DNA of 64,000 nt, taken from positions 1-64,000 of the forward strand of contig JAHENA010000005.1 of the NCBI GenBank assembly GCA_024643405.1, read 5' to 3'. Below, piece by piece: positions 6,320 through 64,000 of the stretch. Origin of the DNA: Flavobacteriales bacterium. GTDB lineage: Bacteria > Bacteroidota > Bacteroidia > Flavobacteriales > Flavobacteriaceae. The first letter of the stretch is position 1; each line of letters starts with the position of its first letter. A program made the position numbers and the translations under genes. Under the pieces are notes generated by a model. It worked only from the letters and a program-made list of their open reading frames with translations. It was not told the DNA's origin and did not search any database.

Positions 6320-6412
6320 CCACTTTATAGTTATTTTTGCCTTAAAATCGGATAGATTTAATAAATCAAAATATATTCATTTTATTTATAATATATTTTG
6401 AATGTATATTTA

Positions 6413-9400
6413 ATGAATAAAAAAGTTGAGCTTTTAAATGTTATTTTTTTATTACTAGCAATTTCTTGTTGGTCTCAAACTAATAATATCCCACCAACAA
6501 TTACTGCATCAGGTGATCAAACATACTGTCCTTTAAGTGAACTAAATATTGTAACTTTTTTTAATATTGAGGACCCAGATGACTCAGAAATTGAGGCACT
6601 ATATATTCAAATTTCAACAGGATATCAAATTGGTTTTGATTCATTAATTTTAAATGGAAACCATCCAAATATTTTGACATCATGGAATGTTACAGAAGGG
6701 AAACTGACTTTAAAAGGAAATGGTACTCCACAAGCGCGATACGTTGATTTGATTGATGCAGTATATGATGTTGTTTTGAAAAGTACAAGCAACAACCCAA
6801 CAGACAAATTTTTTTCATTTACCATTGGGGATGCTAATTATTTACCTTCTACAGGTCATTATTATCAATATGTGTCTGCAATTGGGATTACGTGGACAAA
6901 AGCTAAAATAGCAGCAGAAAATAGCCGTTATTATGGTTTACAAGGGTATTTGGCAACCATCGGGTCACCAGAAGAAGCGCAATTATCTGGAGAACAGGCG
7001 GCCGGTGCAGGTTGGATAGGGGGAAGTGATGCAGCGGCAGAGGGAGTATGGCGCTGGGTTACCGGACCAGAAGCTGGGACAGTATTTTGGAATGGTGCTG
7101 TAAACGGATCAACTCCAAATTATGCCAACTGGAACAATAATGAACCAAATAATGCAAATGGCGGTGAAGATTATGCTCACATAACAGATCCATCTATTGG
7201 TAATCGAGGGTCTTGGAATGATTTAAGAGAAGCTGGTGATCCACCGGGACCATATCACCCAAAAGGCTATATTGTGGAATATGGTTGGCCAAACGACGCT
7301 CCTTTAAATATTTCAGCTACTACGCAATTTAGAGTTACTAAAATAACTACCACTAAACCTAATTCAAGTTGTGGGGCAGGAAGTGTTGTTTTAGAAGCTT
7401 ATGCAACAACTTTAACAGCAACGGTTTTATGGTATGATACAACTACAGGAGTAAATTCTATAGGTAATGGTAATCAGTTTATTACACCAATTATTAGTAC
7501 TACAAAAACCTATTATGTATTAGCTTCTGAAAATGGGTGTTTAGAAGGTCCACGGGTTCCGGTTAATGCTACCATAATAACAATACCCACAATCAATTCT
7601 GTTACAGGTAATTTAGTATGCGAATCGGGTTCCGGCACCTTATCTGCAACTCCATCATCAGGTGTTGTAAATTGGTATGGTAGTCCAACAGGAGGAATGA
7701 TGTTAGCAACAGGAAATTCGTTTCAAACGCCTATTGTAAATACATCAACTACCTATTATGTTGATGCAACTTTTAATGGATGCACAACAGCAATGAGAAC
7801 TCCGGTTACTCTAACAGTCCAAAAAACACCCATACCTAGCGCGAATGCTAATCAAGCATTTTGTGATATTGCACAAGCTACTATTTCGAATCTTTCTGCT
7901 GTAGGAAATTCCTTATTATGGTATATTTCAGGTTCAGGTGGAATTCCAATTAATCCTTCAGATTTATTAACAACCAGAACTTATTATGTTTCTCAAACAA
8001 TAAATGGATGTGAAAGTATCAACAGATTACCAGTAAATGTTATAATACATGAAACCGTTGGATTGCCAACCACAATCCCTGATTTGTTTCAGTGTGATTC
8101 CATGTCAGATGGCGATGATACCAATGGTTTTACAACATTCGATTTAACAATTAATGAATCTGTATTATTGAACGGAAAATCCGCTTCCGATTATACGTTT
8201 TATTATTTTACTGATTCGGCATTTTCAAATCCCATTGCTACACCACCCAATGCATTCATTAATACTACTGTAGGTGGTCAAACTATTTACGTTAGAATTG
8301 TAAATAATTTGAATAATTCTTGTTTTACAGACGCCTCATATACTATTCAGGTAAATCAATTACCAATAGTTCAAAGTGCAATAGTATTTAAAAATTGTGA
8401 TGAAGATGGTATCCCAGATGGGTTTACAAATTATAATTTAGAAGAAGCCAACGTTATTATTTCAAACAATAATTCAGTCGGCTTAGTCTTTACCTATTAT
8501 ATGACCTCCAATGACGCTGAATTCGCTGTCAATGCCATTTCTCCTTTTTATAATAATACCATGGGAAATACAGTTTATGCACGGGTTGAAAACACTAATA
8601 ATTGTTTTCGTGTATCAACTATCAATTTACAAGTTTCAACTACGGCATTCCCTCAAGGCTTTATTTACGAATTAGAAAACTGTGATGACGATGCAACAAT
8701 TGACGGATTAAATGCATTTAATTTAAATCAGGCCTCTCCATTATTTATAGCTCAATTTCCAACAGGTCAAAATTTAAGCGTGCATTATTACAGAAATTTA
8801 AACGATGCACAGTTAGAACAGAATGAAATAGATACCTCTAGTAATTATACGAATGAAACCAGTTTTTCACAGACATTATATGTAAGAGTAGAAAGTGATG
8901 ACAATGGCGATTGTTTTGGACTTGGGCCTCATTTATTATTAACAGTACATCCAAGACCTGAATTTGAGGTTGACAATTCTGCTATTTATTGTTTAGATAA
9001 TAAACCTGTTACCTTAACTATTTTTAATCCGAAAGGGAATTATACTTATAAATGGACAGATGGAAATGGACAAGTGGTCAGTACTATGCCTTTTGCCACT
9101 GTAGTTTCTGGTGGCAATTATACAGTTATTGGTACATCAAATTTTGGATGCGAATCGTTTCCTGTAACATTTAATGTGGTTGAATCCGCTCTTGCTGTTA
9201 TTAGTGCTGATGATGTTACTATAGTTGAGTTATCAAATAACAATAGTATTACCATTGATAACGAAAACAATAATTTAGGTATTGGTGATTATGAATTTGC
9301 TTTAGATAATATCAATGGACCATACCAAGATGAACCCTATTTTGATCATGTTGGTGCTGGGTCTCATACTATTTATGTAAAAGACAAAAATTTATGTGGT

Positions 9401-9700
9401 ATAGCAGAATTAGAGGTTTTTATTCTTGGATTTCCTAAATATTTCACACCAAATAATGACGGGAATAATGATACCTGGCAGGTAAAGGGGTTAGGAACTG
9501 ATTTTTCTAATTCTTCAGTTGTTAACATTTATGACCGTTATGGAAAATTTATTAAACAGTTGAATGCTAAAAATGGCTTTTGGGACGGAACCTTTAATGG
9601 TCAACCATTAGTGGGATCAGATTATTGGTTTGTTGCAGAACTTATTGAAATAACTGGAGACATCAAAACCTATCGCGGGCATTTTAGTTTAGTGAGATAA
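6413..9700 (+). CDS. T9SS type B sorting-domain protein with C-type-lectin-like domain and Ig-like repeats
   Basis: Signal peptide; CTLD-like 'GHYYQYVSAIGITWTKAKIAAE...WIGGSD...WNNNEPNN...EDYAHI'; three 'TYYV...NGC...P' repeats; C-terminal 'FPKYFTPNNDGNNDTWQVKGL...VNIYDRYGKFI...' gliding-motility-type domain. ATG at 6413 preferred to the TTG at 6398. Confidence 0.85.
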   Translation: MNKKVELLNVIFLLLAISCWSQTNNIPPTITASGDQTYCPLSELNIVTFFNIEDPDDSEIEALYIQISTGYQIGFDSLILNGNHPNILTSWNVTEGKLTLKGNGTPQARYVDLIDAVYDVVLKSTSNNPTDKFFSFTIGDANYLPSTGHYYQYVSAIGITWTKAKIAAENSRYYGLQGYLATIGSPEEAQLSGEQAAGAGWIGGSDAAAEGVWRWVTGPEAGTVFWNGAVNGSTPNYANWNNNEPNNANGGEDYAHITDPSIGNRGSWNDLREAGDPPGPYHPKGYIVEYGWPNDAPLNISATTQFRVTKITTTKPNSSCGAGSVVLEAYATTLTATVLWYDTTTGVNSIGNGNQFITPIISTTKTYYVLASENGCLEGPRVPVNATIITIPTINSVTGNLVCESGSGTLSATPSSGVVNWYGSPTGGMMLATGNSFQTPIVNTSTTYYVDATFNGCTTAMRTPVTLTVQKTPIPSANANQAFCDIAQATISNLSAVGNSLLWYISGSGGIPINPSDLLTTRTYYVSQTINGCESINRLPVNVIIHETVGLPTTIPDLFQCDSMSDGDDTNGFTTFDLTINESVLLNGKSASDYTFYYFTDSAFSNPIATPPNAFINTTVGGQTIYVRIVNNLNNSCFTDASYTIQVNQLPIVQSAIVFKNCDEDGIPDGFTNYNLEEANVIISNNNSVGLVFTYYMTSNDAEFAVNAISPFYNNTMGNTVYARVENTNNCFRVSTINLQVSTTAFPQGFIYELENCDDDATIDGLNAFNLNQASPLFIAQFPTGQNLSVHYYRNLNDAQLEQNEIDTSSNYTNETSFSQTLYVRVESDDNGDCFGLGPHLLLTVHPRPEFEVDNSAIYCLDNKPVTLTIFNPKGNYTYKWTDGNGQVVSTMPFATVVSGGNYTVIGTSNFGCESFPVTFNVVESALAVISADDVTIVELSNNNSITIDNENNNLGIGDYEFALDNINGPYQDEPYFDHVGAGSHTIYVKDKNLCGIAELEVFILGFPKYFTPNNDGNNDTWQVKGLGTDFSNSSVVNIYDRYGKFIKQLNAKNGFWDGTFNGQPLVGSDYWFVAELIEITGDIKTYRGHFSLVR

Positions 9701-12725: not shown

Positions 12726-13466
12726 TTAACTTAAATCCCATATAGACCAGGCTTCTTCCGCCTGTAATTCTAACATTTTTAAGCCATTTAGAATGGTTGC
12801 ACCATGATTCTTACCTATTTTCAAAAAAGTGGTTTCTTCAGGATTATAAATTAAATCATATAAAATATGTTCGCTATTGATAGCTCCAAATGGGATGTCA
12901 GGACAAGCGTCAACATTCGGAAATGTGCCAATAGGGGTACAGTTTATTATTATTTGGTGTTCTTTGATGATTTTATCTGTTAAAACATTATAGGTAAAGC
13001 CTATACCATTTTTAGAAGTTCTAGAAACAAAATCATAGTGAATATTTAATTCTTTTAAACTAAACGCAACAGCTTTACTGGCTCCACCAGTTCCTAATAT
13101 TAACGCCTTTTTATGATGTGGTTTTAAAAGAGGCTTTAATGACTGTTTAAATCCGTGACAGTCTGTATTATATCCTATTAGTTGGTTGTTTTGAGTAACT
13201 TTAATCGTATTAACAGCGCCTATTTTTTTGGCCGTTTCATCTAATTTATCAATAAATGGAATGATGACTTCTTTATATGGTATGGTAACATTAAAACCTT
13301 TAATACCCTCTGTGTTTTTAATGATAGAGGGAAATAACTCTATATTTTCAATATCAAAATTTTCATAAGTTACATTGGTAATCTGTTCCTTTTCAAATTT
13401 ATTTTTAAAATAAGCTCTAGAAAATGAGTATGAAATATTTTTACCTATTAAGCCTAATTTATGCAT
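12726..13466 (-). CDS. aroE: Shikimate dehydrogenase
   Basis: MHKLGLIGKNISYSFSRAYF; GFNVTIPYKE; GAVNTI; LILGTGGASKAVAFSL; INCTPIGTFPN. Start at 13466, overlapping the upstream DUF368 gene. Confidence 0.95.
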   Translation of the reverse strand: MHKLGLIGKNISYSFSRAYFKNKFEKEQITNVTYENFDIENIELFPSIIKNTEGIKGFNVTIPYKEVIIPFIDKLDETAKKIGAVNTIKVTQNNQLIGYNTDCHGFKQSLKPLLKPHHKKALILGTGGASKAVAFSLKELNIHYDFVSRTSKNGIGFTYNVLTDKIIKEHQIIINCTPIGTFPNVDACPDIPFGAINSEHILYDLIYNPEETTFLKIGKNHGATILNGLKMLELQAEEAWSIWDLS

Positions 13467-14478
13467 GTTGTTTTCTTGTTTTTTGTCCGTAATATTCAAG
13501 AGCCAAAACAATTATAATCCCCAGAAAAATAAAGGCTACCGCATAATAAGTTTCTGTATTGAGTGTGGGAATATATCGTTCATAGTTTAAAACAACTTTT
13601 GTTCCCGTAGAATCTAAAATATGCGTACCATCTTCTGCTAATTTATAAATAGTATTTTTCCACGGCCAGACAACTCCTAATGAGCCTACTATAAATCCAA
13701 TAATCGCTGAAAGTGTGATACTTTTATAATGTTTTAAAATATAACTTAAAATATGTGAAAATGTTACCAAGCCTACAACAGAGCCTAAAGTGAAGACAAC
13801 TAAAACTTCAAGCATTCTTATTCTTTGGGAGTTGTGAATAAAACTAAAATTACCACTAAAAAGATCAAAAAAAGTATCAGATAAAGCATTTACTGAATCG
13901 ACCAAAAGCAATACATAATTTCCTAAAAGAATGAGTATAAAGGAACCGGAGAATCCAGGAAGCGTCATACCTGAGACACTTATAATACCACAAAAAAACA
14001 CAAACCAAAGGTTGTCATTTTCCTTGGCAGGATTTAAAAAGCTAATACTGATTCCTGCAATAATTCCTAATGCTAAAGCCGTATATGTTTTATAATTCCA
14101 GTCTTTAAAATCTTTATTAATATAATAAATAGAGCCGATAATCATTCCAAAGAAAACACTCCAGATATATAGTTCATAGTATTTAATCAAATAATCTAAT
14201 ACTTTTGAAACACTAAAAAAACTCACAATCATTCCAAGGAATAACAAGCCAATGAATTTACCATTGATGTAATTATAAAAACTTTTAAATCTTCCGTTAA
14301 TCAGTAATTTAAACGCCTTTGTATTAATTTTTCTGAGAGAATAAATAAATTCTTCATAGAAACCAGCAACAAAAGCAACAACACCTCCAGAAACTCCAGG
14401 GACTTTGTTTGCAGCTCCCATACCCAATCCTTTTAGAACCAGGAATATTTTATCTCTTAGTGTTCTGGTGCTTTCCAT
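13459..14478 (-). CDS. DUF368 family membrane protein (copy 2)
   Basis: MGAANKVPGVSGGVVAFVAGFYEEFI and MTLPGFSGSFILILLG; polytopic. Confidence 0.92.
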   Translation of the reverse strand: MESTRTLRDKIFLVLKGLGMGAANKVPGVSGGVVAFVAGFYEEFIYSLRKINTKAFKLLINGRFKSFYNYINGKFIGLLFLGMIVSFFSVSKVLDYLIKYYELYIWSVFFGMIIGSIYYINKDFKDWNYKTYTALALGIIAGISISFLNPAKENDNLWFVFFCGIISVSGMTLPGFSGSFILILLGNYVLLLVDSVNALSDTFFDLFSGNFSFIHNSQRIRMLEVLVVFTLGSVVGLVTFSHILSYILKHYKSITLSAIIGFIVGSLGVVWPWKNTIYKLAEDGTHILDSTGTKVVLNYERYIPTLNTETYYAVAFIFLGIIIVLALEYYGQKTRKQHA

Positions 14479-15407
14479 TAGTGTTTTTTTGAACCTACTT
14501 TTTCAAGAATAAAAATAGTTAAAAAACCTGCAATGATTAGTAGTGTTGCGAGTAATAAATGATTATCTCCTAGATAATCAAAAGGTAATACACTTTTATC
14601 TATAAGCGGTGTCTTAACACCTTTTGAATTCACATGCCAGGTTAATGTTTCTTTCCATGGCCAAACTTTATTTAAAGAACCAAAAATAAAACCGGTTAGA
14701 ATTGCTAAGGTAAGATTATGATAATGTTTAAACAACCATTTTAATAGGTGACTGAAACTTAAAAGACCGATTACGGCACCACTTACAAAAAATATCAATT
14801 TTTTTAAATCAAAATCATGTAGCGCATCACTTAAGGTTTTATAAGCCCCCAAAATCACCAAGATAAATGAGCCTGAAATACCAGGTAGAATCATGGCGCA
14901 AATAGCTAAGGCCCCGGCAAAAAACAAAAAGAATGAACTTTCATTAGTTGCCATGGATGGTAATGTTGAAATATAAAAGGCAATAAAGGATCCAAATAGC
15001 AATCCGATTATAACAGAAATGTCCCATTTAGTTATTTGTTTTCCAACAAAATAAATACTGGCAATAATAAGTCCAAAGAAGAATGACCAAATTAATACAG
15101 GTTCATTCTCAATTAAATATTTAGCAAGTCTCATAAATGATACAAAACTGACAATAATCCCAGATAACAAGGCTACCAGAAAATTTCCGTTTAATTGTTT
15201 CCAAAACGATTTAAATCCCTTCTGAAAAAGTGTTTTAAAGAGAGCGACATTAACATTACTTATAGTAGCAATGAGCTCTTCATAAATACCAGATATAAAG
15301 GCAATGGTGCCTCCAGAAACACCAGGAACGGCATCGGCAGCGCCCATAGCCAATCCTTTTAATGAAATCATTAAATAGTCAATAAATTTTCTTTGCATGT
15401 GTTGCAT
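14478..15407 (-). CDS. DUF368 family membrane protein (copy 1)
   Basis: MGAADAVPGVSGGTIAFISGIYEELI and MILPGISGSFILVILG; TAATG overlap with the downstream copy. Confidence 0.93.
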   Translation of the reverse strand: MQHMQRKFIDYLMISLKGLAMGAADAVPGVSGGTIAFISGIYEELIATISNVNVALFKTLFQKGFKSFWKQLNGNFLVALLSGIIVSFVSFMRLAKYLIENEPVLIWSFFFGLIIASIYFVGKQITKWDISVIIGLLFGSFIAFYISTLPSMATNESSFFLFFAGALAICAMILPGISGSFILVILGAYKTLSDALHDFDLKKLIFFVSGAVIGLLSFSHLLKWLFKHYHNLTLAILTGFIFGSLNKVWPWKETLTWHVNSKGVKTPLIDKSVLPFDYLGDNHLLLATLLIIAGFLTIFILEKVGSKKH

Positions 15408-48624: not shown

Positions 48625-49092
48625 TTAATCTAATTCATACCATGCAATATTTGTTAACGGAGGGCGTCTTCCAGTATCAACCGGTGGATAATTTGTTGCT
48701 AAATAATTAACGATAATCTCTTGATTTTTCCCTAAATCCGGCAGATTCTGAGTTTTCTGCATCCATTTAATAGTGGCGTTCCAGCGATCCGCATTCATAC
48801 GGTTTTGAAGAATTAATTTTGATGAATGACAGGCCGTACAGTTACGTACCACTGTCATCATCCCTTCAGCATCCACAAAACCAGTAGCTACATGTATGCC
48901 ATTTTCTATTCTATCTGGATCTAGTTCTTCAACAACAGCAGCCACCTCTGGGGGTTTGTTGAAATTAAAAAATTCAGGATTAGACATATAATAAACAAGC
49001 GCCCCACCTGCTATTACAAACAAACTGAATAGTAAAAGTAATAAATGATATACTTTCTTAACTTGTTTAAAAAATTCTAATTCTTCAGACAT
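48625..49092 (-). CDS. Membrane-anchored monoheme cytochrome c
   Basis: N-terminal TM helix; single CTACH motif with downstream Met; directly abuts the Mo-oxidoreductase gene (TAGATG junction). Confidence 0.85.
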   Translation of the reverse strand: MSEELEFFKQVKKVYHLLLLLFSLFVIAGGALVYYMSNPEFFNFNKPPEVAAVVEELDPDRIENGIHVATGFVDAEGMMTVVRNCTACHSSKLILQNRMNADRWNATIKWMQKTQNLPDLGKNQEIIVNYLATNYPPVDTGRRPPLTNIAWYELD

Positions 49093-50313
49093 CTACTTCA
49101 CTTTAACAGCAATGCGGTGACATGCATTATTTAAATAACCTTTAGGATTCCATCCTGGTAATAGCATAGGTTGTGCTTTTCCGTTGCTATCCGTTGCTTT
49201 GGCCCAAACTTCATAATATCCTGTTTGAGGAAAATCAATGGAAGCCCTAAAATGTTGCCAGGCTAATCGGTTTTTTGGTTTTTCAATGGTACACATTTTC
49301 CAGGTAGAGCCATAGTCTATGGAGTACTCCATTTTAGTTACTTCTAATTCTCCCGCCCAGGCATGTCCTCGGATGTTTAATGTTTTTCCTTTAGTTATAA
49401 TAGCACCAGATTTTGGATAGGTAATTAGTGATTTGACGGGCATAGACTCAATGATACAATAATCTTCATCCTTTATCTTTTCTCCGGGTTCAATAGGTTT
49501 ACAAGGTACCCTATAAGAATCGCCACCCATTTTTTCACCATCATGAATGATATTACGAATACTAATTCTGTTAAGCCATTTTCCTGAAACAGAAGCAGGC
49601 CAGCCACCAGCCACCAGTCTTAAAGGATACCCGTGCACCAACGGAATATCTTCTCCATTCATTTTAAAGGCAATTAAAGTTTCATCCTGTAATGCTTTTG
49701 ACATAGGGCATCCTCTGGAAATAGGCTCTTTTTTAGGGTCGCGACTTAAATGTATATCTGCCGCATGATAGCCAATATAAACCGCGTTATTTTTTATACC
49801 GGCATCTTCTAAAACATCTCTTAACCGCACACCAGTCCAAGAGGCACAGTGCACCGCGCCAATAGTCCATTGATTTCCTTGCGCTGGCGGATTAAATTCA
49901 CTGCGCCCATTTCCTCCACATTCTATGGTTAATTGATAAGTATATTGTTTAAATTTTGATTTTAATTCAGCAAGTGTATAGGTTTTCTCTTTAGTGACAG
50001 ATTCCCCATCAATTTTCAATACCCAGTTTTTAACATCAATACTCTCAGGAATTAATCCGTTATTTCTTATAAACATACACGAATTTGGGGTGATCGCATC
50101 ATCTAATAAATGCGCCTGTGCTTCCATATTCCATGGCTTGTCATTCAACAAAACCATTTCTTTATTTTTATTAAACATTTTAAAAGGATCTGGATCTTGT
50201 AATGCCAATGGCACATAACCTTCTAATATATTAGATCCAAAAATAATTTCTGCTCCAATAAGTGTTGCAAACGAGCTAATCGTAGCTTTTTTAACAAAAG
50301 ATCTTCTTTTCAA
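49093..50313 (-). CDS. Sulfite oxidase-family molybdopterin oxidoreductase (SorA/SoxC-like)
   Basis: KRRSFVKK Tat-like leader; YQLTIECGGNGRSEFNPP; GAVHCASWTGVRLRDVL (Mo-ligand Cys); HGYPLRLVAGGWPASVSGKWLNRI; C-terminal dimerisation domain. Confidence 0.9.
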   Translation of the reverse strand: MKRRSFVKKATISSFATLIGAEIIFGSNILEGYVPLALQDPDPFKMFNKNKEMVLLNDKPWNMEAQAHLLDDAITPNSCMFIRNNGLIPESIDVKNWVLKIDGESVTKEKTYTLAELKSKFKQYTYQLTIECGGNGRSEFNPPAQGNQWTIGAVHCASWTGVRLRDVLEDAGIKNNAVYIGYHAADIHLSRDPKKEPISRGCPMSKALQDETLIAFKMNGEDIPLVHGYPLRLVAGGWPASVSGKWLNRISIRNIIHDGEKMGGDSYRVPCKPIEPGEKIKDEDYCIIESMPVKSLITYPKSGAIITKGKTLNIRGHAWAGELEVTKMEYSIDYGSTWKMCTIEKPKNRLAWQHFRASIDFPQTGYYEVWAKATDSNGKAQPMLLPGWNPKGYLNNACHRIAVKVK

Positions 50314-55326: not shown

Positions 55327-56148
55327 TTGAAAAAGCAAATACATACAGCTTACATAATTGTAATGATTTTAATTATTATAGCTGTAACCTTTTATTTAAG
55401 TTACACGGGATATACCTATTACAAAACCCCTTTAGAAGAACGTTTTTATCATCCACAACATACATGGTTTAAACCAAGTGGAGCCTACGGACATGGGTTA
55501 GGTATTATTGGAACATTTTTGATTCTTTTTGGTGTGACTATTTATATTGCCAGGAAGCGATATAACTTTTTATCAAAAATTATTCGTTTAAAATATTTAT
55601 TAGAGTTTCATATTTTCTTATGCACTTTGGGACCCATTATGGTTCTTTTTCATACAGCATTTAAATTTGGAGGTATTGTTTCAATTGCTTTCTGGAGTAT
55701 GGTTGCGGTTGTTTTAAGTGGTGTGATAGGCAGATTTATTTACATTCAAATTCCAAGAACGCTTGAAGGAAGAGAACTTACCCTAAATGAAGTAAAAGGG
55801 TTAAAAACGGATTTAGCCACAGCCATAAACGAAGAAGTTGTGGTAGATGCTGAAATGAGACAGGTTATTTTAAATATATCGAATTCAGAAAGACCTTCTA
55901 CTAAAGATTTAAGAAAATTAAAAAAGGAACTTATTAAGAAAAAATTTCCAAAAGAGGATAGAAATTATATTTTGAAATTATTGAAAGATGATATTTCCTT
56001 ATCAGGTAAGATCAAGCGGCTTTTATTGATGCAAAGGCTTTTTAAATACTGGCATGTTGCCCATTTACCATTTGCATTAATTATGCTCATTATAGTGATT
56101 ATTCACGTCGCAGTAACACTGGCCTTTGGCTATAAATGGATATTCTGA
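55327..56148 (+). CDS. Predicted diheme cytochrome b-type membrane protein
   Basis: TTG start; hydrophobic helices with two H-x13-H pairs (HIFLCTLGPIMVLFH and HLPFALIMLIIVIIH). Confidence 0.75.
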   Translation: MKKQIHTAYIIVMILIIIAVTFYLSYTGYTYYKTPLEERFYHPQHTWFKPSGAYGHGLGIIGTFLILFGVTIYIARKRYNFLSKIIRLKYLLEFHIFLCTLGPIMVLFHTAFKFGGIVSIAFWSMVAVVLSGVIGRFIYIQIPRTLEGRELTLNEVKGLKTDLATAINEEVVVDAEMRQVILNISNSERPSTKDLRKLKKELIKKKFPKEDRNYILKLLKDDISLSGKIKRLLLMQRLFKYWHVAHLPFALIMLIIVIIHVAVTLAFGYKWIF

Positions 56149-57491
56149 TGGAAAGTGAAGTTTTTATAGAACAGATTATAGTTTACGGTGTTGTATTTAT
56201 TATATGCGCTATTACTATATTTTTCTATACACGCAAAAAACGAGTTAAATCTGAGGTGGTTGAAAAAAAAGTGAACATTGCCAAAGAAGAAGGCTTGTTT
56301 GAACCCGTTTCATTGTATCCTCATATAGACCTTAAGTCCTGCATAGGAAGTGCTGCCTGTGTTGCTGACTGTCCTGAAAAGGATATTTTAGGAATTGTTG
56401 ATGGTGTTGCAACGGTTATAAATACCGCAAATTGCATCGGTCATGGTGCTTGTTTTCATGCATGTCCGGTAGAGGCTATTTCGCTTAGAATCGGAACAGA
56501 ATCCAGAGGCGTCGATTTACCGCATGTTAATCAAAATTTTGAAACCAATACAAAAGGTATCTATATCGCTGGTGAATTGGGAGGCATGGGACTCATTAAA
56601 AACAGTGTGGAACAAGGGCAGCAAGCCATTGAAAATATTGTAAAAAGTAAAAAACCATCAAAACCCAATGTCATTGACGTTTTAATTGTGGGTGCGGGGC
56701 CAGCAGGAATTTCGGCCACACTAGCTGCAAAAAAGCATGGATTAACCAGTGTTACTTTAGAACAAGATTCTTTAGGTGGTACCGTGTATACTTTTCCTAG
56801 ATCAAAAATTGTGATGACATCACCTATGGATTTACCACTATATGGCAAAGCAAAGTTATATGATACTTCAAAAGATGAATTATTGCAGCTTTGGAAAAAG
56901 GTCATAGCTGATCAGGAAATAAAAATTACAGAGAACACCAAAGTCGAGCAGATTATACCAATTGAAAATGACACCTTTAAAGTGATTACTTTAATGGGAG
57001 ATGAATATATATGCAACCATATACTTTTAGCCATTGGTAGAAGAGGAAGTCCAAGAAAATTGAATGTGCCGGGTGAAGAAGCAACTAAAGTCGCTTACCG
57101 ACTTTTGGAGCCTGAAAGAATTCAAAAAAAGAATATTTTAGTAGTAGGAGGTGGGGATTCTGCCATTGAAACTGTTTTATTACTTAAGGAAAATAATGAT
57201 GCTATTTTATCATATAGAAGTGATAAATTTTCAAGATTGAAACCAAAAAACAGAGAAAAAATAGAAGCAGCTATTGAAGATAAATCTTTAAAAGTCATCT
57301 TTAATTCAACTCTAGTATCCATTCATGATGATTATGTGTTGCTTAAAACAGAAACGGCCACGACTCCTGAGAAAATACCTAATGATTTAGTCTACATTTT
57401 TGCTGGAGGAGAATTGCCTACAGGATTTTTAGAGAAATCAGGTGTTAATATATCCAAGCGTTTTGGTTACGTTATGAAAAGACATGATTAG
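56136..57491 (+). CDS. Membrane-anchored FeS- and FAD-dependent NAD(P) oxidoreductase
   Basis: N-terminal TM; CIGSAACVADCP and CIGHGACFHACP FeS motifs; GAGPAGISATLAAKKHG FAD site; VVGGGDSAIETVLLL NAD(P) site. Confidence 0.88.
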   Translation: MDILMESEVFIEQIIVYGVVFIICAITIFFYTRKKRVKSEVVEKKVNIAKEEGLFEPVSLYPHIDLKSCIGSAACVADCPEKDILGIVDGVATVINTANCIGHGACFHACPVEAISLRIGTESRGVDLPHVNQNFETNTKGIYIAGELGGMGLIKNSVEQGQQAIENIVKSKKPSKPNVIDVLIVGAGPAGISATLAAKKHGLTSVTLEQDSLGGTVYTFPRSKIVMTSPMDLPLYGKAKLYDTSKDELLQLWKKVIADQEIKITENTKVEQIIPIENDTFKVITLMGDEYICNHILLAIGRRGSPRKLNVPGEEATKVAYRLLEPERIQKKNILVVGGGDSAIETVLLLKENNDAILSYRSDKFSRLKPKNREKIEAAIEDKSLKVIFNSTLVSIHDDYVLLKTETATTPEKIPNDLVYIFAGGELPTGFLEKSGVNISKRFGYVMKRHD

Positions 57492-57497
57492 TTTAAT

Positions 57498-59336
57498 TTG
57501 AGAATAATTATAAAACATATCGCTTTATTATTACTACTATCGGTAGCGACTGGTTATGGGCAAATTTCTCCAGGAGATTTGTCTCAAGCACACGCCAAAT
57601 TAGAAGGCATGAGTAATTGCACTCAATGCCATGAAATAGGAGAAAAAGTTTTAGATAGTAAATGTTTATCCTGTCATAAAGAAATTCAAACCCTTATAAA
57701 TAATAAAAAAGGATTACATGCTAATCCTGAAGTGATTAGAAAAGATTGTTTTGAATGCCATAGTGACCATAATGGAAGAAATTTTGATATGGTTCGTTTT
57801 GATCAAGATAATTTTAAACACGTTCAAACGGGTTATAAGCTTGAGGGAAAACACGAAACTATCGACTGTAATAAATGTCATAAGTCTGAGTTTATTTCAG
57901 ATTCTGAATTTAAAAAGCGCAAGAGCACCTTTTTAGGTTTGAACCAAGAATGTCTTTCATGTCATGATGATTTTCATCAAAAAACACTTCCTAAGGATTG
58001 TAAGCAATGTCATGATTTTGAAGCTTTTAAACCCGCTACTCAATTTGATCATAATAAAGCAGATTTTAAATTATCTGGCAAACATCTGGATGTAGATTGC
58101 AAGGAATGTCATAAGGAAACCACCCGTAACGGCAGGAAATTTCAAGAATTTACAGGTATTGCTTTTGAGGATTGTAAATCCTGCCATAAAGATCCGCATG
58201 AAAGTCAATTGCCGGGTGATTGTAAATCATGTCATACAGAATTAGATTTTAAATTATTTAATGGGCAAGATAGCTTTAATCATAGCGCCACTAATTTCAA
58301 GTTAAATGGAAAACATGCTGAGGTTGATTGCTTTGCGTGTCATAAGGAGTCTACAGATCCCAAAATAATCTTTCAAGATAGATTGAGAATTACCGAAAAT
58401 AATTGTGTGAAGTGCCATAAAGATCAACATGAGGGAAAATTTGGTTTAGATTGTGCCAAGTGCCATACTGAAACTAATTTTTTGGCGTTAAAGAGTATGA
58501 AATCATTTGATCATTCACTAACCGATTATCCACTAGAAGGCAAGCACTTAGAAGTAGATTGCAAGCAATGCCATAAACAAAGGTATACTCAGGCCATCAA
58601 TTTTTCGGCCTGTAACAATTGCCATACAGATTATCATAAAGGGGAGTTTAAAGAAAATGGCATCATACCAGATTGTGTGACTTGTCATTCGTTACTGGAA
58701 GGATTTGATTATAGTTTGTTTACTTTAGAAAAACATCAAGAAACACAGTTTCCGTTAAAAGGAGCGCACTTAGCAACCCCTTGTTTTGCATGTCATGTGG
58801 GTGAAAAGGAGAAGCGATGGACTTTTAGAAATTTAGGACCAGATTGTAACAATTGCCATAATGATATTCATCAAGGATATATAAGCAAAAAGTTCTATCC
58901 AGATAATGATTGTAAGGCCTGCCATGTCAATGAAAGTTGGTCTCAAATAACCACCTTTAACCATAGCAATACAAAATTTAAATTAGAAGGCAAGCATACA
59001 GAAGTTGAATGCAGAGCCTGTCATTTCATCGAAAAGACTGATAATAATGTAGTTACAATTCAAAAATTTGCTAATTTGGATTCTCAATGTGCTTCATGCC
59101 ATGAAAATCAACATGGTGATTCATTTGCAATAGCAGGCGTGACAGATTGTAAAAGGTGCCATGTAACCAATTCTTGGTTTCCTGAAAATTTCAATCACGA
59201 TACTACCAATTTCCCTCTGGAAGGAAAGCACCAAGAAATAGATTGCAGAGCTTGTCATACAAGTAGTATTATAGAAGGAAAAACTAAAGTTATTTATAAA
59301 ATTAAAAAATACCAATGTATAGATTGTCATTCATAA
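57498..59336 (+). CDS. Multiheme c-type cytochrome (23 CxxCH motifs)
   Basis: TTG start with signal peptide MRIIIKHIALLLLLSVATGYGQ; 23 CxxCH counted in the ORF translation; repeated FxHxxTxFxLxGKHxEVDCxxCH module. Confidence 0.92.
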   Translation: MRIIIKHIALLLLLSVATGYGQISPGDLSQAHAKLEGMSNCTQCHEIGEKVLDSKCLSCHKEIQTLINNKKGLHANPEVIRKDCFECHSDHNGRNFDMVRFDQDNFKHVQTGYKLEGKHETIDCNKCHKSEFISDSEFKKRKSTFLGLNQECLSCHDDFHQKTLPKDCKQCHDFEAFKPATQFDHNKADFKLSGKHLDVDCKECHKETTRNGRKFQEFTGIAFEDCKSCHKDPHESQLPGDCKSCHTELDFKLFNGQDSFNHSATNFKLNGKHAEVDCFACHKESTDPKIIFQDRLRITENNCVKCHKDQHEGKFGLDCAKCHTETNFLALKSMKSFDHSLTDYPLEGKHLEVDCKQCHKQRYTQAINFSACNNCHTDYHKGEFKENGIIPDCVTCHSLLEGFDYSLFTLEKHQETQFPLKGAHLATPCFACHVGEKEKRWTFRNLGPDCNNCHNDIHQGYISKKFYPDNDCKACHVNESWSQITTFNHSNTKFKLEGKHTEVECRACHFIEKTDNNVVTIQKFANLDSQCASCHENQHGDSFAIAGVTDCKRCHVTNSWFPENFNHDTTNFPLEGKHQEIDCRACHTSSIIEGKTKVIYKIKKYQCIDCHS

Positions 59337-61198
59337 TCATACTGTTTTTAATGATGACGTCTCTTTGGGCGCAATCTCCTCATGGCAATGATTTAAAAAT
59401 TAATTGCAATCAGTGCCATAATCCGTCTGGATGGGAATTGGATATTTATTTGATGCGATTTAATCATGATAAAACAGACTTTAGGTTGGAAGGGGCACAC
59501 ACACAAACGGATTGTAAAGCCTGCCATGAAACTTTAGTTTTTAAGGAAGCTCCAAATCAATGTGCTTCCTGCCATAATGATATTCATAGTATGTCGGTTG
59601 GAAATGATTGTGTACAATGTCACACTACAAAAACCTGGATTGTTGATAATATACCTGAAATTCATGAAGAAAATGGATTCCCGCTTATAGGGGCTCACGG
59701 AAGTTTGAGTTGTAATGAATGCCACACGGCTGAAACAAGTATTAGATTTGACAGAATTGGAAATGATTGTATCTCATGTCATAAAAAAGATTATGACGCC
59801 TCACAAAGCCCAAATCATACAGAACTAGGATTTTCTACAGATTGTATTGAATGTCATAATCCATTAGGGACTGGTTGGGATTCTGAAAATATCAATCATA
59901 ATTTTTTCCCATTAACACAGGGGCATGATATTCAGGACTGTAAACAATGTCATAAAACAAATAATTATTCAGATGCTTCACCAGAATGTATAAGTTGTCA
60001 TCAAACAGATTTTAATAGTACAAGTAATCCAAATCATTCTAGTGTTGGTTTTTCAACAGATTGTGTCTCTTGTCATACGACTAATCCAGGATGGACACCA
60101 GCGAATATCAATCATGACTTTTTCCCATTAACATTGGGTCATAATATACAGGATTGTACACAATGTCATAAAACAGCGAGTTATGCAGATGCTTCACCTG
60201 AATGCGTGAATTGTCATCAAACGGATTATGATAACACCCAAAACCCAATTCATAGAGATACTGGTTTTTCAACGGAATGTGTTTCCTGTCATACCACCAA
60301 TCCAGGATGGACACCAGCAAATATTAATCATGACTTTTTCCCGTTAACATTAGGTCATGATATTCAGGATTGTACACAATGTCATACTACTAATAGTTAT
60401 GCAGATGTTACCCCTGAATGCGTGAATTGTCATCAAACGAATTACAGTAACACTAATAATCCAAATCATTCCACAAATGGTTTCTCTACAGATTGTGTAT
60501 CCTGTCACACCACCAATCCGGGATGGACACCAGCAACTATCAATCATGACTTTTTCCCATTAACATTAGGCCATGCCATACAGGATTGTAATCAGTGTCA
60601 CACCACAAATAATTATGCTGATGCTTCACCAGAATGTGTAAGTTGTCATCAAACGGACTACAATAACACTAATAACCCAAATCATAGTACTAATGGGTTT
60701 TCAACAGATTGTGTATCCTGTCATACAATTAATCCAGGATGGACACCAGCAACTATCAATCATGATTTTTTCCCATTGACATTAGGTCATGATATTCAAG
60801 ATTGTAAACAGTGTCATACTACCAGTAATTATGCTGATGCTTCACCGGAGTGTGTAAGCTGTCATCAAACAAATTATGATAATACAACGAACCCAAATCA
60901 CCTTGCAGCTCATTTCCCCACGGATTGCGTAGCCTGTCATACCACAAACCCGAATTGGACACCTGCCCAATTTGACCATGATGCACAATATTTTCCAATA
61001 TATTCTGGAAAACATAGACAAGGGCAAGCTTGGAATGATTGCGTGGAATGCCATACCAATCCAAATGATTATGCAGATTATTCCTGTTTTAAATGCCATA
61101 GGCAAACCGAAATGGATGATAAGCACCAAAACATGACTGGTTATGCGTATGTGAGCAGTGTCTGTCTGCAATGCCACCCCGACGGTACAAAACCTTAA
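59315..61198 (+). CDS. Multiheme c-type cytochrome (25 CxxCH motifs) with internal tandem repeats
   Basis: Signal peptide MYRLSFIIILFLMMTSLWAQ; 25 CxxCH counted; overlaps the previous gene by 22 nt. Confidence 0.93.
   Translation: MYRLSFIIILFLMMTSLWAQSPHGNDLKINCNQCHNPSGWELDIYLMRFNHDKTDFRLEGAHTQTDCKACHETLVFKEAPNQCASCHNDIHSMSVGNDCVQCHTTKTWIVDNIPEIHEENGFPLIGAHGSLSCNECHTAETSIRFDRIGNDCISCHKKDYDASQSPNHTELGFSTDCIECHNPLGTGWDSENINHNFFPLTQGHDIQDCKQCHKTNNYSDASPECISCHQTDFNSTSNPNHSSVGFSTDCVSCHTTNPGWTPANINHDFFPLTLGHNIQDCTQCHKTASYADASPECVNCHQTDYDNTQNPIHRDTGFSTECVSCHTTNPGWTPANINHDFFPLTLGHDIQDCTQCHTTNSYADVTPECVNCHQTNYSNTNNPNHSTNGFSTDCVSCHTTNPGWTPATINHDFFPLTLGHAIQDCNQCHTTNNYADASPECVSCHQTDYNNTNNPNHSTNGFSTDCVSCHTINPGWTPATINHDFFPLTLGHDIQDCKQCHTTSNYADASPECVSCHQTNYDNTTNPNHLAAHFPTDCVACHTTNPNWTPAQFDHDAQYFPIYSGKHRQGQAWNDCVECHTNPNDYADYSCFKCHRQTEMDDKHQNMTGYAYVSSVCLQCHPDGTKP
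59843..60925 (+). repeat. In-frame coding tandem repeat, about five units of 216-219 bp plus a degenerate sixth
   Basis: Units start at TGT codons 59843 (219 bp, divergent), 60062, 60278, 60494 and 60710. 'ggatggacacc' recurs at about 60089, 60305, 60521 and 60737. Confidence 0.9.
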
Positions 61199-61200
61199 TT

Positions 61201-62820
61201 ATGAAAATTAAAAGTTATTTTATTTTCATATTATGTATGGGAATAACGTTAGCTAATTTATTAGCTCAGGAAAAGGAGCATATTCTAATTGGGAAAGTTA
61301 CTTTTATAACGTCAAAAAACGCTTATGTAAAGTTTGATGACACGAGTGTTATTAATATAGGAGATACCCTTCAAGCTCCAAATAAGGAAAAATGTTTAGT
61401 AGTTACAAACAAGTCTTCAAACTCCGTTGTTTGTTTAAAATTAAAAAATTGTTTAGTCAATAAAGAAGATAAGATAAGCTTTGTTTACCAGTTAGCATCT
61501 AAAATTGAAATTCTTGAAAGCGAAGAAATACAGGAAAATATAGGAATTAGTTTTAATGATTCTATACAATCCATAAAGAAGAAGAGAACATATTATACAG
61601 AAAATATAACAGGACGCTTATCGGCAGCCAGTTATAGTAGTCTTTCTAAAATTAGAGGCGATAATCATAGATTAATGACTCGGTTTTCACTGGAGGCCAA
61701 TCATATAAATAACTCCAAATTTTCGGTAGAAACGTATCTTAATTACAGATATAATATCTATTCTGTTGGGATAAACAATAATTTAAACAAAACTGACTTA
61801 AATGTTTTTAACCTTGCTTTGCGATATGATATTGATTCTACATTTTCTATTACCGCAGGAAGAAAAATAAATTATAAAATTTCTTCACTAGGTGCTATTG
61901 ATGGGTTACAGGCTGAAAAATATTTTGGAAATAGTTACGTTGGGGTATTAGCAGGTTTTAGACCAGATATTTATGATTTTACTTTAAATACTAATTTATT
62001 ACAGTATGGCGGCTACATCGGGCAAATGACGGATCATGAAAATTTTTATTCTCAAACCACTTTGGGTTTTGCCGAACAAAAAAATGATAATCAAATAGAT
62101 AGGAGATTTACTTATTTTCAGCATTCAAGTACTATTTTTAAAAAATTGAATGTGTTTTCAACTTTAGAACTTGATTTGTTCAATAAGTTAAATGATTCCG
62201 TAAAAAGTAATTTAAGAGTGACTAATTTATATGTTTCTGGTCGTTATAGATTTAATAATAAAATAAATGCCGCTTTATCATATGATTCTAGAAAGCGCAT
62301 TATCTATTATAAAACCTATGAAACCGATATCGAAGAATTGCTTGATGAAGATATAGCGCGTCAAGGATTTCGAGCACGATTAAATATCAGACCTTTTAAA
62401 AATATTTATTCAGGTTTTAGTTACAGCAAAAGGTTTCAAAGCGATAATCAAAATAAATCAGATAATATTTATGGGTTTTTAAGTTTTTCTAAATTGCCTA
62501 TTGAAGGTAGGGTGTCTTTAACTTATAACATGAATACGTCAAATTATTTAAAAAGTAATATTGCCTCCATTAGATATTCAAGAGAATTATTGGATGGCAG
62601 ATTAGGTACTGATATTTATTATAGATTTGTAAATTATAAATATGAAAGCAATTTGCCCGATTTTAATCAGCATTATTTCGGGGCTTATTTATCATATTAC
62701 ATTGACCGTTCATTTACGTGCAGTTTATCAGGTGAAGTTTCACAATATAATGAAGAAACAAATTATAGAATCAATGCTCAAATTATTAAACGCTTTTTTA
62801 GAAGCAGAAAACAAAATTAA
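61201..62820 (+). CDS. Predicted outer-membrane beta-barrel protein with N-terminal SH3/OB-like domain
   Basis: Signal peptide MKIKSYFIFILCMGITLANLLAQ; globular 'GKVTFITSKNAYVKFDDTSVINIGDTLQ'; C-terminal alternating aromatic/polar strands (YLNYRYNIYSVG, FNLALRYDIDSTFSITAGRKINYK...). ATG at 61201 preferred to 61171. Confidence 0.7.
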   Translation: MKIKSYFIFILCMGITLANLLAQEKEHILIGKVTFITSKNAYVKFDDTSVINIGDTLQAPNKEKCLVVTNKSSNSVVCLKLKNCLVNKEDKISFVYQLASKIEILESEEIQENIGISFNDSIQSIKKKRTYYTENITGRLSAASYSSLSKIRGDNHRLMTRFSLEANHINNSKFSVETYLNYRYNIYSVGINNNLNKTDLNVFNLALRYDIDSTFSITAGRKINYKISSLGAIDGLQAEKYFGNSYVGVLAGFRPDIYDFTLNTNLLQYGGYIGQMTDHENFYSQTTLGFAEQKNDNQIDRRFTYFQHSSTIFKKLNVFSTLELDLFNKLNDSVKSNLRVTNLYVSGRYRFNNKINAALSYDSRKRIIYYKTYETDIEELLDEDIARQGFRARLNIRPFKNIYSGFSYSKRFQSDNQNKSDNIYGFLSFSKLPIEGRVSLTYNMNTSNYLKSNIASIRYSRELLDGRLGTDIYYRFVNYKYESNLPDFNQHYFGAYLSYYIDRSFTCSLSGEVSQYNEETNYRINAQIIKRFFRSRKQN

Positions 62821-62822
62821 AT

Positions 62823-63614
62823 ATGAAAATCAAATCATTATGTGCTGTATTACTAGCATCCGGTTTTTTAGGGTGTAATAATAACCCAAAAGTTATTCCT
62901 GTAACTTCAGAAAATGCCAATCCAAATGCTTCGGGCATATTTTCAGGCTCTTCAAATGAGAATGTAGATTTTAATGCGCCTACCTCTGACGCATTTCATA
63001 AAGTAGTAGTGAATGAAATACTTCCAACTTCCAAATATGTTTACTTAAACGTCACTGAAGATGGTGAAAACTATTGGATCGCCACAAGAAGTATGGAAGC
63101 CACTGTAGGGGAAACCTACTATTATAAAGGTGGCCTTTTAAAAACCAATTTTGAAAGTAAAGAATATAACCGAGTATTTGATAAAGTTTATTTAATTGGA
63201 AATTTAGTAACGGTCAATCATGCCAATTCGGCATCTGTAGCATCAAGCGGTGACTATTCAAATACCAATCAAAGTTATGCTCAAAAGGAGGATATCCCTA
63301 TGCACACTGAAAAGATTGTACAGCATCAAGGGTCTATGAAAATAGCTGAATTAGTTAGAGATCCAAAGAAATATGAAGGTAAAACAATCCAATTAGATGG
63401 TATTTGCACCAAAATTAATGCGGGAATTATGGATAGGAATTGGATTCATATCAAAGATGGAAGTCAAGATGATTATGATTTAGTAGTCACCTCAGATACT
63501 TTTGTTCCAGAAGGGACTGCATTCACTATTAAAGCTATTGTGGTTTTAAATAAAGATTTTGGGGCTGGCTATAAGTATGATTTAATTTTAGAACAAGGGG
63601 TTCTGATGAAATAG
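62823..63614 (+). CDS. Lipoprotein, NrfJ-like
   Basis: Lipobox GFLGC; 'VVVNEILPTSKYVYLNVTEDGENYWIATRSMEATVGETYYYKGGLLKTNFESKEYNRVFDKVYLIGNL' resembles NrfJ-related proteins; OB-fold-like C-terminal part. Confidence 0.7.
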   Translation: MKIKSLCAVLLASGFLGCNNNPKVIPVTSENANPNASGIFSGSSNENVDFNAPTSDAFHKVVVNEILPTSKYVYLNVTEDGENYWIATRSMEATVGETYYYKGGLLKTNFESKEYNRVFDKVYLIGNLVTVNHANSASVASSGDYSNTNQSYAQKEDIPMHTEKIVQHQGSMKIAELVRDPKKYEGKTIQLDGICTKINAGIMDRNWIHIKDGSQDDYDLVVTSDTFVPEGTAFTIKAIVVLNKDFGAGYKYDLILEQGVLMK

Positions 63615-63683: not shown

Positions 63684-64000
63684 TTATGAAATCACTTTGT
63701 ATTTTCTTTTTTTAAGATAGGCAAGTATGGTAATTCCAATAATGATGGCAACTACAATATATACCCAACTTGGTATGGGCACAGGATCACCAGTTGCATA
63801 GGAATGTAATCCAGATAAATAATAGTTCACACCATAATACGTCATAATCACGGTTGCTAATCCAAAAATGGTAGAAACGTTATATATGAATAAGCCTGTA
63901 AGTTTTGGGATAATTCTCATATGAAGAATGAAGGCGTAAACCAATATAGTTACTAATGCCCAGGTTTCTTTAGCATCCCAGCCCCAATAGCGACCCCAAG
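63684..64000 (-). CDS. CcsA/ResC-type cytochrome c biogenesis protein (5' end outside window)
   Basis: Minus-strand translation at the edge gives WGRYWGWDAKETWALVTILVYAFILHMR, a WWD heme-handling motif; ORF runs off the window. Confidence 0.9.
   Translation of the reverse strand, partial: WGRYWGWDAKETWALVTILVYAFILHMRIIPKLTGLFIYNVSTIFGLATVIMTYYGVNYYLSGLHSYATGDPVPIPSWVYIVVAIIIGITILAYLKKRKYKVIS

Follow-up and report, generated by a model that had tools for sequence, protein, structure and literature searches.

A conserved Bacteroidota operon with a multiheme cytochrome whose heme number varies in steps of three

The dodecaheme cytochrome of Geobacter sulfurreducens extends its 12 hemes over 12 nm, about 1 nm per heme, and the triheme cytochromes c7, such as PpcA, share the ligand order HHCHCC. 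The sixteen-heme cytochrome HmcA of sulfate reducers is built of c3-type tetraheme units and belongs to an inner-membrane complex. Among the porin-cytochrome conduits, ExtA holds 12 hemes in 32 kDa (PMC12977616). In archaea, ANME multiheme cytochromes, which are S-layer fusions, carry up to 86 motifs (PMC9012536), and the tandem repeats in Borg multiheme cytochromes are described as disordered stretches that never disrupt functional domains (PMC9879509). Filament-forming cytochromes are known from both Geobacter and archaea (PMC11936953).

Here, an operon from a marine member of the Flavobacteriaceae is compared with these systems. It lies near the end of the stretch of 64,000 nucleotides that was analysed, referred to as the window (Flavobacteriales bacterium, assembly GCA_024643405.1, contig JAHENA010000005.1, positions 1 to 64,000 of the forward strand), and contains two multiheme cytochrome genes, c23 and c25, between genes for a likely cytochrome b and an Fe-S flavoprotein on one side and for a predicted outer-membrane barrel and a likely lipoprotein on the other (Table 1). 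The order cytochrome b, flavoprotein, c23, c25, barrel and lipoprotein is kept from Flavobacteriaceae to Bacteroidales, and the ResB/CcsA gene usually adjoins the operon. Six histidines of the likely cytochrome b (H6, H95, H109, H243, H246 and H260) are invariant among 14 orthologues, and searches returned no Pfam, NCBIfam or convincing PDB match for this protein. The barrel likewise has no Pfam or NCBIfam match and no convincing sequence relative in the PDB; its AlphaFold model (pLDDT 78.1, pTM 0.59), in which the strands were counted from the DSSP string, matches the folds of ushers and porins in Foldseek with E-values down to 1.7e-11, and the 50 structural matches listed include no MtrB-type structure. 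In a comparison set of one genome per species, the system occurs in 21 of 400 genomes of the family and in 27 of 396 genomes of the phylum (searched by the barrel), and only one of ten Maribacter genomes has the gene, so that its distribution is patchy. Elsewhere in the window, a sulfite-oxidase-like molybdopterin protein (48625-50313, minus strand; PF00174, PF03404) is encoded a few kb from the multiheme operon, and next to it lies the gene of a small protein that has one CxxCH. A pair of neighbouring genes for membrane proteins of similar appearance (13459-15407, minus strand) are by eye DUF368-like paralogues, and a secreted protein of 1100 aa (6398-9700, plus strand) has a C-terminus that by eye resembles a gliding-motility (type B) sorting domain of type IX secretion.

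Table 1. Features of the operon and of the c25 gene in the window (C, CxxCH; h, any other His)
Feature	Position	Strand	Evidence
Likely b-type cytochrome, a membrane protein with hydrophobic segments seen by eye	55327..56148	+	conserved His
Fe-S flavoprotein: N-terminal membrane anchor (by eye), 4Fe-4S dicluster, pyridine-nucleotide-disulphide-oxidoreductase domain	56136..57491	+	Pfam PF13237, PF13738, PF07992
c23, 23-heme c-type cytochrome, fixed-length partner	57498..59336	+	23 CxxCH; heme number across loci
c23/c25 overlap: last c23 heme motif (CIDCH, 59316-59330) and stop coincide with start of c25 signal peptide (MYRLSFII) in other frame	59315..59336	+	
c25, secreted 25-heme c-type cytochrome, 627 aa, variable-length arm	59315..61198	+	ORF, 25 CxxCH, Pfam
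Leading hC half-module: H23 and first heme CNQCH, start of predicted mature protein	59381..59419	+	conservation
Triheme module 1 [hhCChC], divergent	59465..59623	+	ligand order
Triheme module 2 [hhCChC], divergent	59663..59857	+	ligand order
Triheme module 3, within 73-aa first unit; positional clade across genera (100/99)	59897..60076	+	ligand order, unit tree
Triheme module 4, tandem array	60113..60292	+	ligand order, Tandem Repeats Finder
Triheme module 5, tandem array	60329..60508	+	ligand order, Tandem Repeats Finder
Triheme module 6, tandem array	60545..60724	+	ligand order, Tandem Repeats Finder
Triheme module 7, array end, carries extra His H533	60761..60940	+	ligand order, Tandem Repeats Finder
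Triheme module 8, divergent C-terminal cap, found in most relatives	60977..61177	+	ligand order, orthologue loci
Predicted outer-membrane beta barrel, ~22 strands, small N-terminal beta domain	61171..62820	+	AlphaFold, Foldseek
Likely lipoprotein, 263 aa, LGC lipobox by eye, conserved in operon	62823..63614	+	synteny
Fused ResB/CcsA-type cytochrome c maturation protein, C-terminal end of 1037 aa, extends past window	63684..63998	-	NCBIfam TIGR03144; full ORF in L073, conserved neighbourhood

The c25 gene had drawn attention in an earlier note on this DNA as a 25-heme cytochrome with a 216-bp in-frame tandem repeat, and both descriptions stand: the ORF contains 25 CxxCH motifs, and Tandem Repeats Finder reports a period of 216 bp in 4.7 copies with 0% indels at 59887-60900. 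The interval 59843-60925 consists, as described there, of exactly one 73-aa unit and four 72-aa units and is followed by a divergent last unit of 79 aa. The further claim that each 72-aa unit has three CxxCH and exactly three other histidines holds apart from the last of them, which carries a fourth extra His (H533, in LAAHF). The repeat architecture reaches beyond this interval. When C denotes CxxCH and h any other His, the whole protein reads hC followed by eight copies of [hhCChC], with the one additional His in module 7. With 26 other histidines for 25 CxxCH, the sequence count is compatible with bis-His ligation. A signal peptide is recognisable by eye, with cleavage at ..LWA/QSPHG, and the head of the protein, QSPHG..CxxCH, is conserved; H23, G24 and the first CxxCH are invariant among 16 orthologues. 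The whole protein scores above the Pfam gathering cut-offs for PF14522 (Cytochrome_C7; 89.1 bits, cut-off 24.8) and PF02085 (Cytochrom_CIII; 80.0 bits, cut-off 22.9), as well as for the Cytochrom_c3_2 and MtrC/MtrF domain models, and a single phase-shifted unit passes PF02085 (30.4) and not PF14522 (17.5). AlphaFold prediction of c25 with 16 homologues was uninformative (pLDDT 42.6, pTM 0.18), and a "heme wire" would be a plausible structure of the protein.

The same grammar is found in the gene upstream. The ligand order of c23 is seven copies of [hhCChC] followed by hhCC, with one extra His, so that both proteins consist for the most part of one repeated ligand-order module, His-His-CxxCH-CxxCH-His-CxxCH; in Bacteroidales, the module order of c23 is less regular. 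Taken together, the end of c23 (hhCC) and the beginning of c25 (hC) make up one whole module that is split between two genes, and the two proteins together therefore carry a multiple of three hemes wherever both obey the rule (48 in the window). The split coincides with an overlap of the genes. In the window, TGT ATA GAT TGT CAT TCA TAA (CIDCHS-stop) is read in the other frame as ATG TAT AGA TTG TCA TTC ATA (MYRLSFI), and in 48 of 49 loci a c25 start codon is found one base ahead of the codon for the first Cys in the final CxxCH of c23. The frame shift from c23 to c25 is the same in all 49, and c23 ends 0-7 residues past its last CxxCH. It is hypothesised that this arrangement couples the translation of c23 and c25.

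Whether the split module also exists as a unit of protein structure was approached through spacing and profile scores. The predicted mature c25 starts with (A)QSPHG, and its first CxxCH lies eight residues further on. In composites of the c23 tail with the predicted mature c25, the second CxxCH and the His that follows it are spaced by 9 (range 8-16), compared with exactly 8 in 159 of 159 internal c23 modules. The composites reach a median profile score of 57.8 bits, the c23 tail alone 49.2 and the tail joined to a random c25 segment 53.3; as the composite is only slightly above the random-segment control, the composite module is suggestive only. The two proteins possibly share axial ligands in this module; the ligands also balance within each chain, and sharing across c23 and c25 is thus not forced.

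Complete c25 orthologues were read from genome loci of this family and of other Bacteroidota families. At 42 loci, the gene encodes 10, 16, 19, 22, 25, 28, 31, 34, 37, 40, 43, 46, 49, 58 or 61 hemes, in one case 30, and 41 of the 42 numbers equal 1+3n; the exception (L070, 30 hemes) misses one heme near the C-terminus. Tandem-repeat copy number in this coding gene therefore differs between relatives over the range of 10-61 hemes with the frame intact. The proposal that heme number varies in steps of three is thereby supported between species, and the fixed copy number across distant relatives that the earlier note had set against it was not found. c23 has 23 hemes in Flavobacteriaceae loci and 20 in other Bacteroidota loci. 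On the c23 tree of the 42 loci, with c23 counted only where complete, heme number changes 31 times in c25 and once in c23 (20 versus 23); four loci with a truncated, interrupted or duplicated gene (L063, L067, L111, L122) were left off this tree. About one third of the modules in distant relatives have extra or reordered histidines, and most keep the hhCChC order. Two further loci depart from the 1+3n rule: L123 encodes an 18-heme relative, with no c23 within the stretch fetched, and L122 (4635-8605 in minus-strand coordinates) has a 38-heme gene and then a 10-heme c25-type gene behind a 20-heme gene, the 38 breaking the rule. In a Bacteroidia MAG (L071:8001-11163), two consecutive c25-type genes encode 28 and 13 hemes, both 1+3n. 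At L111:4482-6059, a stop splits the 20-heme gene into ORFs of 5 and 15 hemes, which represents a pseudogene, a sequencing error or a read-through stop codon.

Heme number also differs at short evolutionary distance. Four Yeosuana genes encode 25 (the window), 25, 22 and 31 hemes. In another genus, two genomes have 43 and 31 hemes in c25, although the tree separates their 20-heme genes by only 0.016 changes per column and their flanks are about 84-90% identical in DNA. Each of the four extra modules of the longer gene has no more than 65-85% identity with the copy nearest to it, which does not fit a simple recent duplication; an older block may have been lost in one genome, or exchanged.

In contrast to the near-identity at the DNA level that had been noted for the units of the window, units 2-5 have 77-83% of bases and 76-88% of residues in common and differ at about 47% of fourfold sites (64/135, pooled); unit 1 is 71-74% identical in bases to the others. 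The value at fourfold sites is not far below that of neighbouring genes, which differ at 52-70% of such sites when this genome is compared with its congeners. The units of the window are also scattered in the unit tree (5 label changes, shuffled mean 4.9), so this genome gives no indication that its array was amplified recently. On unit divergence, the fourfold-site comparison with congeners and the unit tree, the recent amplification that had been suggested for the window is rejected.

Arrays of other species tell more about how their length may change. In the tree of unit DNA, the first array unit forms one clade across genera (100/99), and units from the interior group by species, with separate clades for Y. 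marina (98/98), for Maribacter PFL5 (99/93) and for Y. aromativorans (97/98); the units of the window are an exception to this species-wise clustering. This is the pattern that would be expected of an array with fixed ends whose interior undergoes gain, loss and homogenisation. Exact repeats within c25 arrays measure 131 nt in Y. marina, 128 nt in Maribacter Ww89 and 149 nt in Lutibacter oceani, and repeats of 100-150 nt, present in several arrays, would be enough for recombination. Spacing strings additionally reveal that longer arrays repeat blocks of two or four modules. In Lutibacter oceani (L061:8001-10322), a two-module block occurs twice at a distance of 441 nt, and the copies have 149 identical nt, so that length can also move by six hemes. 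The presumed mechanism of length change is recombination between module copies, by which whole modules would be inserted or deleted; both ends of c25 would stay fixed and heme number would move in threes. Because the copies would recombine in register, frame and ligand pattern would be kept without special selection.

What the sequences show is the grammar of the modules, heme numbers of 1+3n in c25, a partner of nearly fixed length, and an operon and a gene overlap that are both conserved. In the reading that we consider probable, c23 and c25 form one wire of a single triheme module, the operon serves as an outer-membrane conduit, and the length of c25 evolves by module recombination. An outer-membrane electron conduit is what the gene content suggests as the most economical reading of the operon. 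Electrons would be exchanged with the cell interior by the membrane cytochrome b and the Fe-S flavoprotein and would cross the periplasm along c23, whose length is fixed; c25, together with the barrel and the lipoprotein, would carry them at or through the outer membrane as an arm of evolving length. We infer the location in the cell, the direction of electron flow, the extended shape of the wire and any benefit of its length. Since the heme number of c25 nearly always changes by whole blocks while its partner hardly changes, evolution appears to adjust the length of the wire. It is put forward more tentatively, as a possibility towards which we do not lean, that c23 and c25 form an uninterrupted heme chain via the composite module, that the start overlap couples their synthesis and that selection tunes the reach of the outer arm.

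Alternatively, c25 might be a periplasmic electron store (capacitor) or general relay, in which the number of modules would set heme capacity instead of reach. A signal peptide that looks plain by eye, without a lipobox or obvious outer-membrane anchor, would suit such a role, as would the best solved relatives by sequence, which are soluble multiheme cytochromes (HmcA-type 1z1n and dodecaheme 3ov0). However, an outer-membrane-barrel gene lies directly downstream of c25 in the neighbourhoods examined, and c25 is linked to c23, and not to a free pool, by the module they divide between them and by the overlap of their genes, so that this role is rather unlikely, though by no means negligible. 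Homopolymeric extracellular filaments of c25, similar to the OmcS, OmcE or OmcZ nanowires and with unit number defining filament geometry, would agree with its multiheme and putatively bis-His composition, but are improbable: the C-terminus of c25 is a complete module, and the unpaired hC at its head is complemented instead by hhCC at the end of c23, and 10 to 61 hemes per subunit are a poor fit to a fixed helical interface. Least of all do the differences in copy number look like assembly artefacts from collapsed or expanded repeats, an explanation with hardly any credit left: although draft contigs that end inside c25 (e.g. G265, G195, G211, G377, G488 and G716) indicate that the array does break some short-read assemblies, the longest exact repeat is 30 nt in the window's gene and below 70 nt in most others, and eight single-contig genomes, each with flanking modules and frame intact, encode 16 (G085), 19 (G261), 22 (G038), 22 (G205), 28 (G632), 34 (G690), 37 (G697) and 43 (G526) hemes. 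Contig breaks show a problem elsewhere but do not create the heme-number series. For the window itself, whose genome is a draft of 190 contigs, the 30-nt limit makes the misassembly that the earlier note had raised as an objection unlikely.

If c25 is of extended shape, its 10 to 61 hemes would span some 10 to 60 nm at about 1 nm per heme. Laboratory work cannot easily vary the length over which biological electron transport takes place, and the Bacteroidota loci offer a natural length series with the same operon, the same module and a barely changed partner. This series makes the dependence of conduction, reach and capacity on length testable, and also opens the question of which habitat or acceptor accompanies a longer wire. 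In addition, the locus points to an electron-transfer operon in Bacteroidota in which a heme motif doubles as the start site of the next gene. In the open-access papers searched, no description of the operon or of the heme-number series in Bacteroidota was found.

Among solved structures, the best profile match of c25 is the HmcA-type 1z1n (E 5.8e-11), and c25 also matches the NCBIfam model of HmcA weakly, with 56 bits and below the equivalog cut-off of 400. The dodecaheme cytochrome of Geobacter sulfurreducens (3ov0; profile E 2.9e-5, single-sequence E 4.9e-4) resembles c25 in its tandem triheme units within one secreted chain. The order HHCCHC of c25 is different from the HHCHCC of c7 and is not a cyclic shift of it, and we know of no fixed-length partner, barrel operon or length series for the Geobacter protein. 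Large archaeal cytochromes of ANME and Borgs are similar in their very high heme numbers per chain and in the tandem repeats of multiheme genes, but unlike in Borgs, the repeat of c25 is itself the heme-binding module. With the porin-cytochrome conduits (MtrCAB, Omb/Oma/Omc and ExtABCD), the operon shares multiheme cytochromes encoded beside a predicted outer-membrane barrel, and c25, with about 72 aa per three hemes, is peptide-poor like ExtA (PMC12977616). It differs from them in a barrel without detectable sequence relation to MtrB, PioB or OmbB and in two long linear cytochromes that split a module between them, one of them of variable length. Since the ligand order is unlike that of c7 and the barrel has no detectable relation to the MtrB type, the operon would represent a conduit variant outside any named family.
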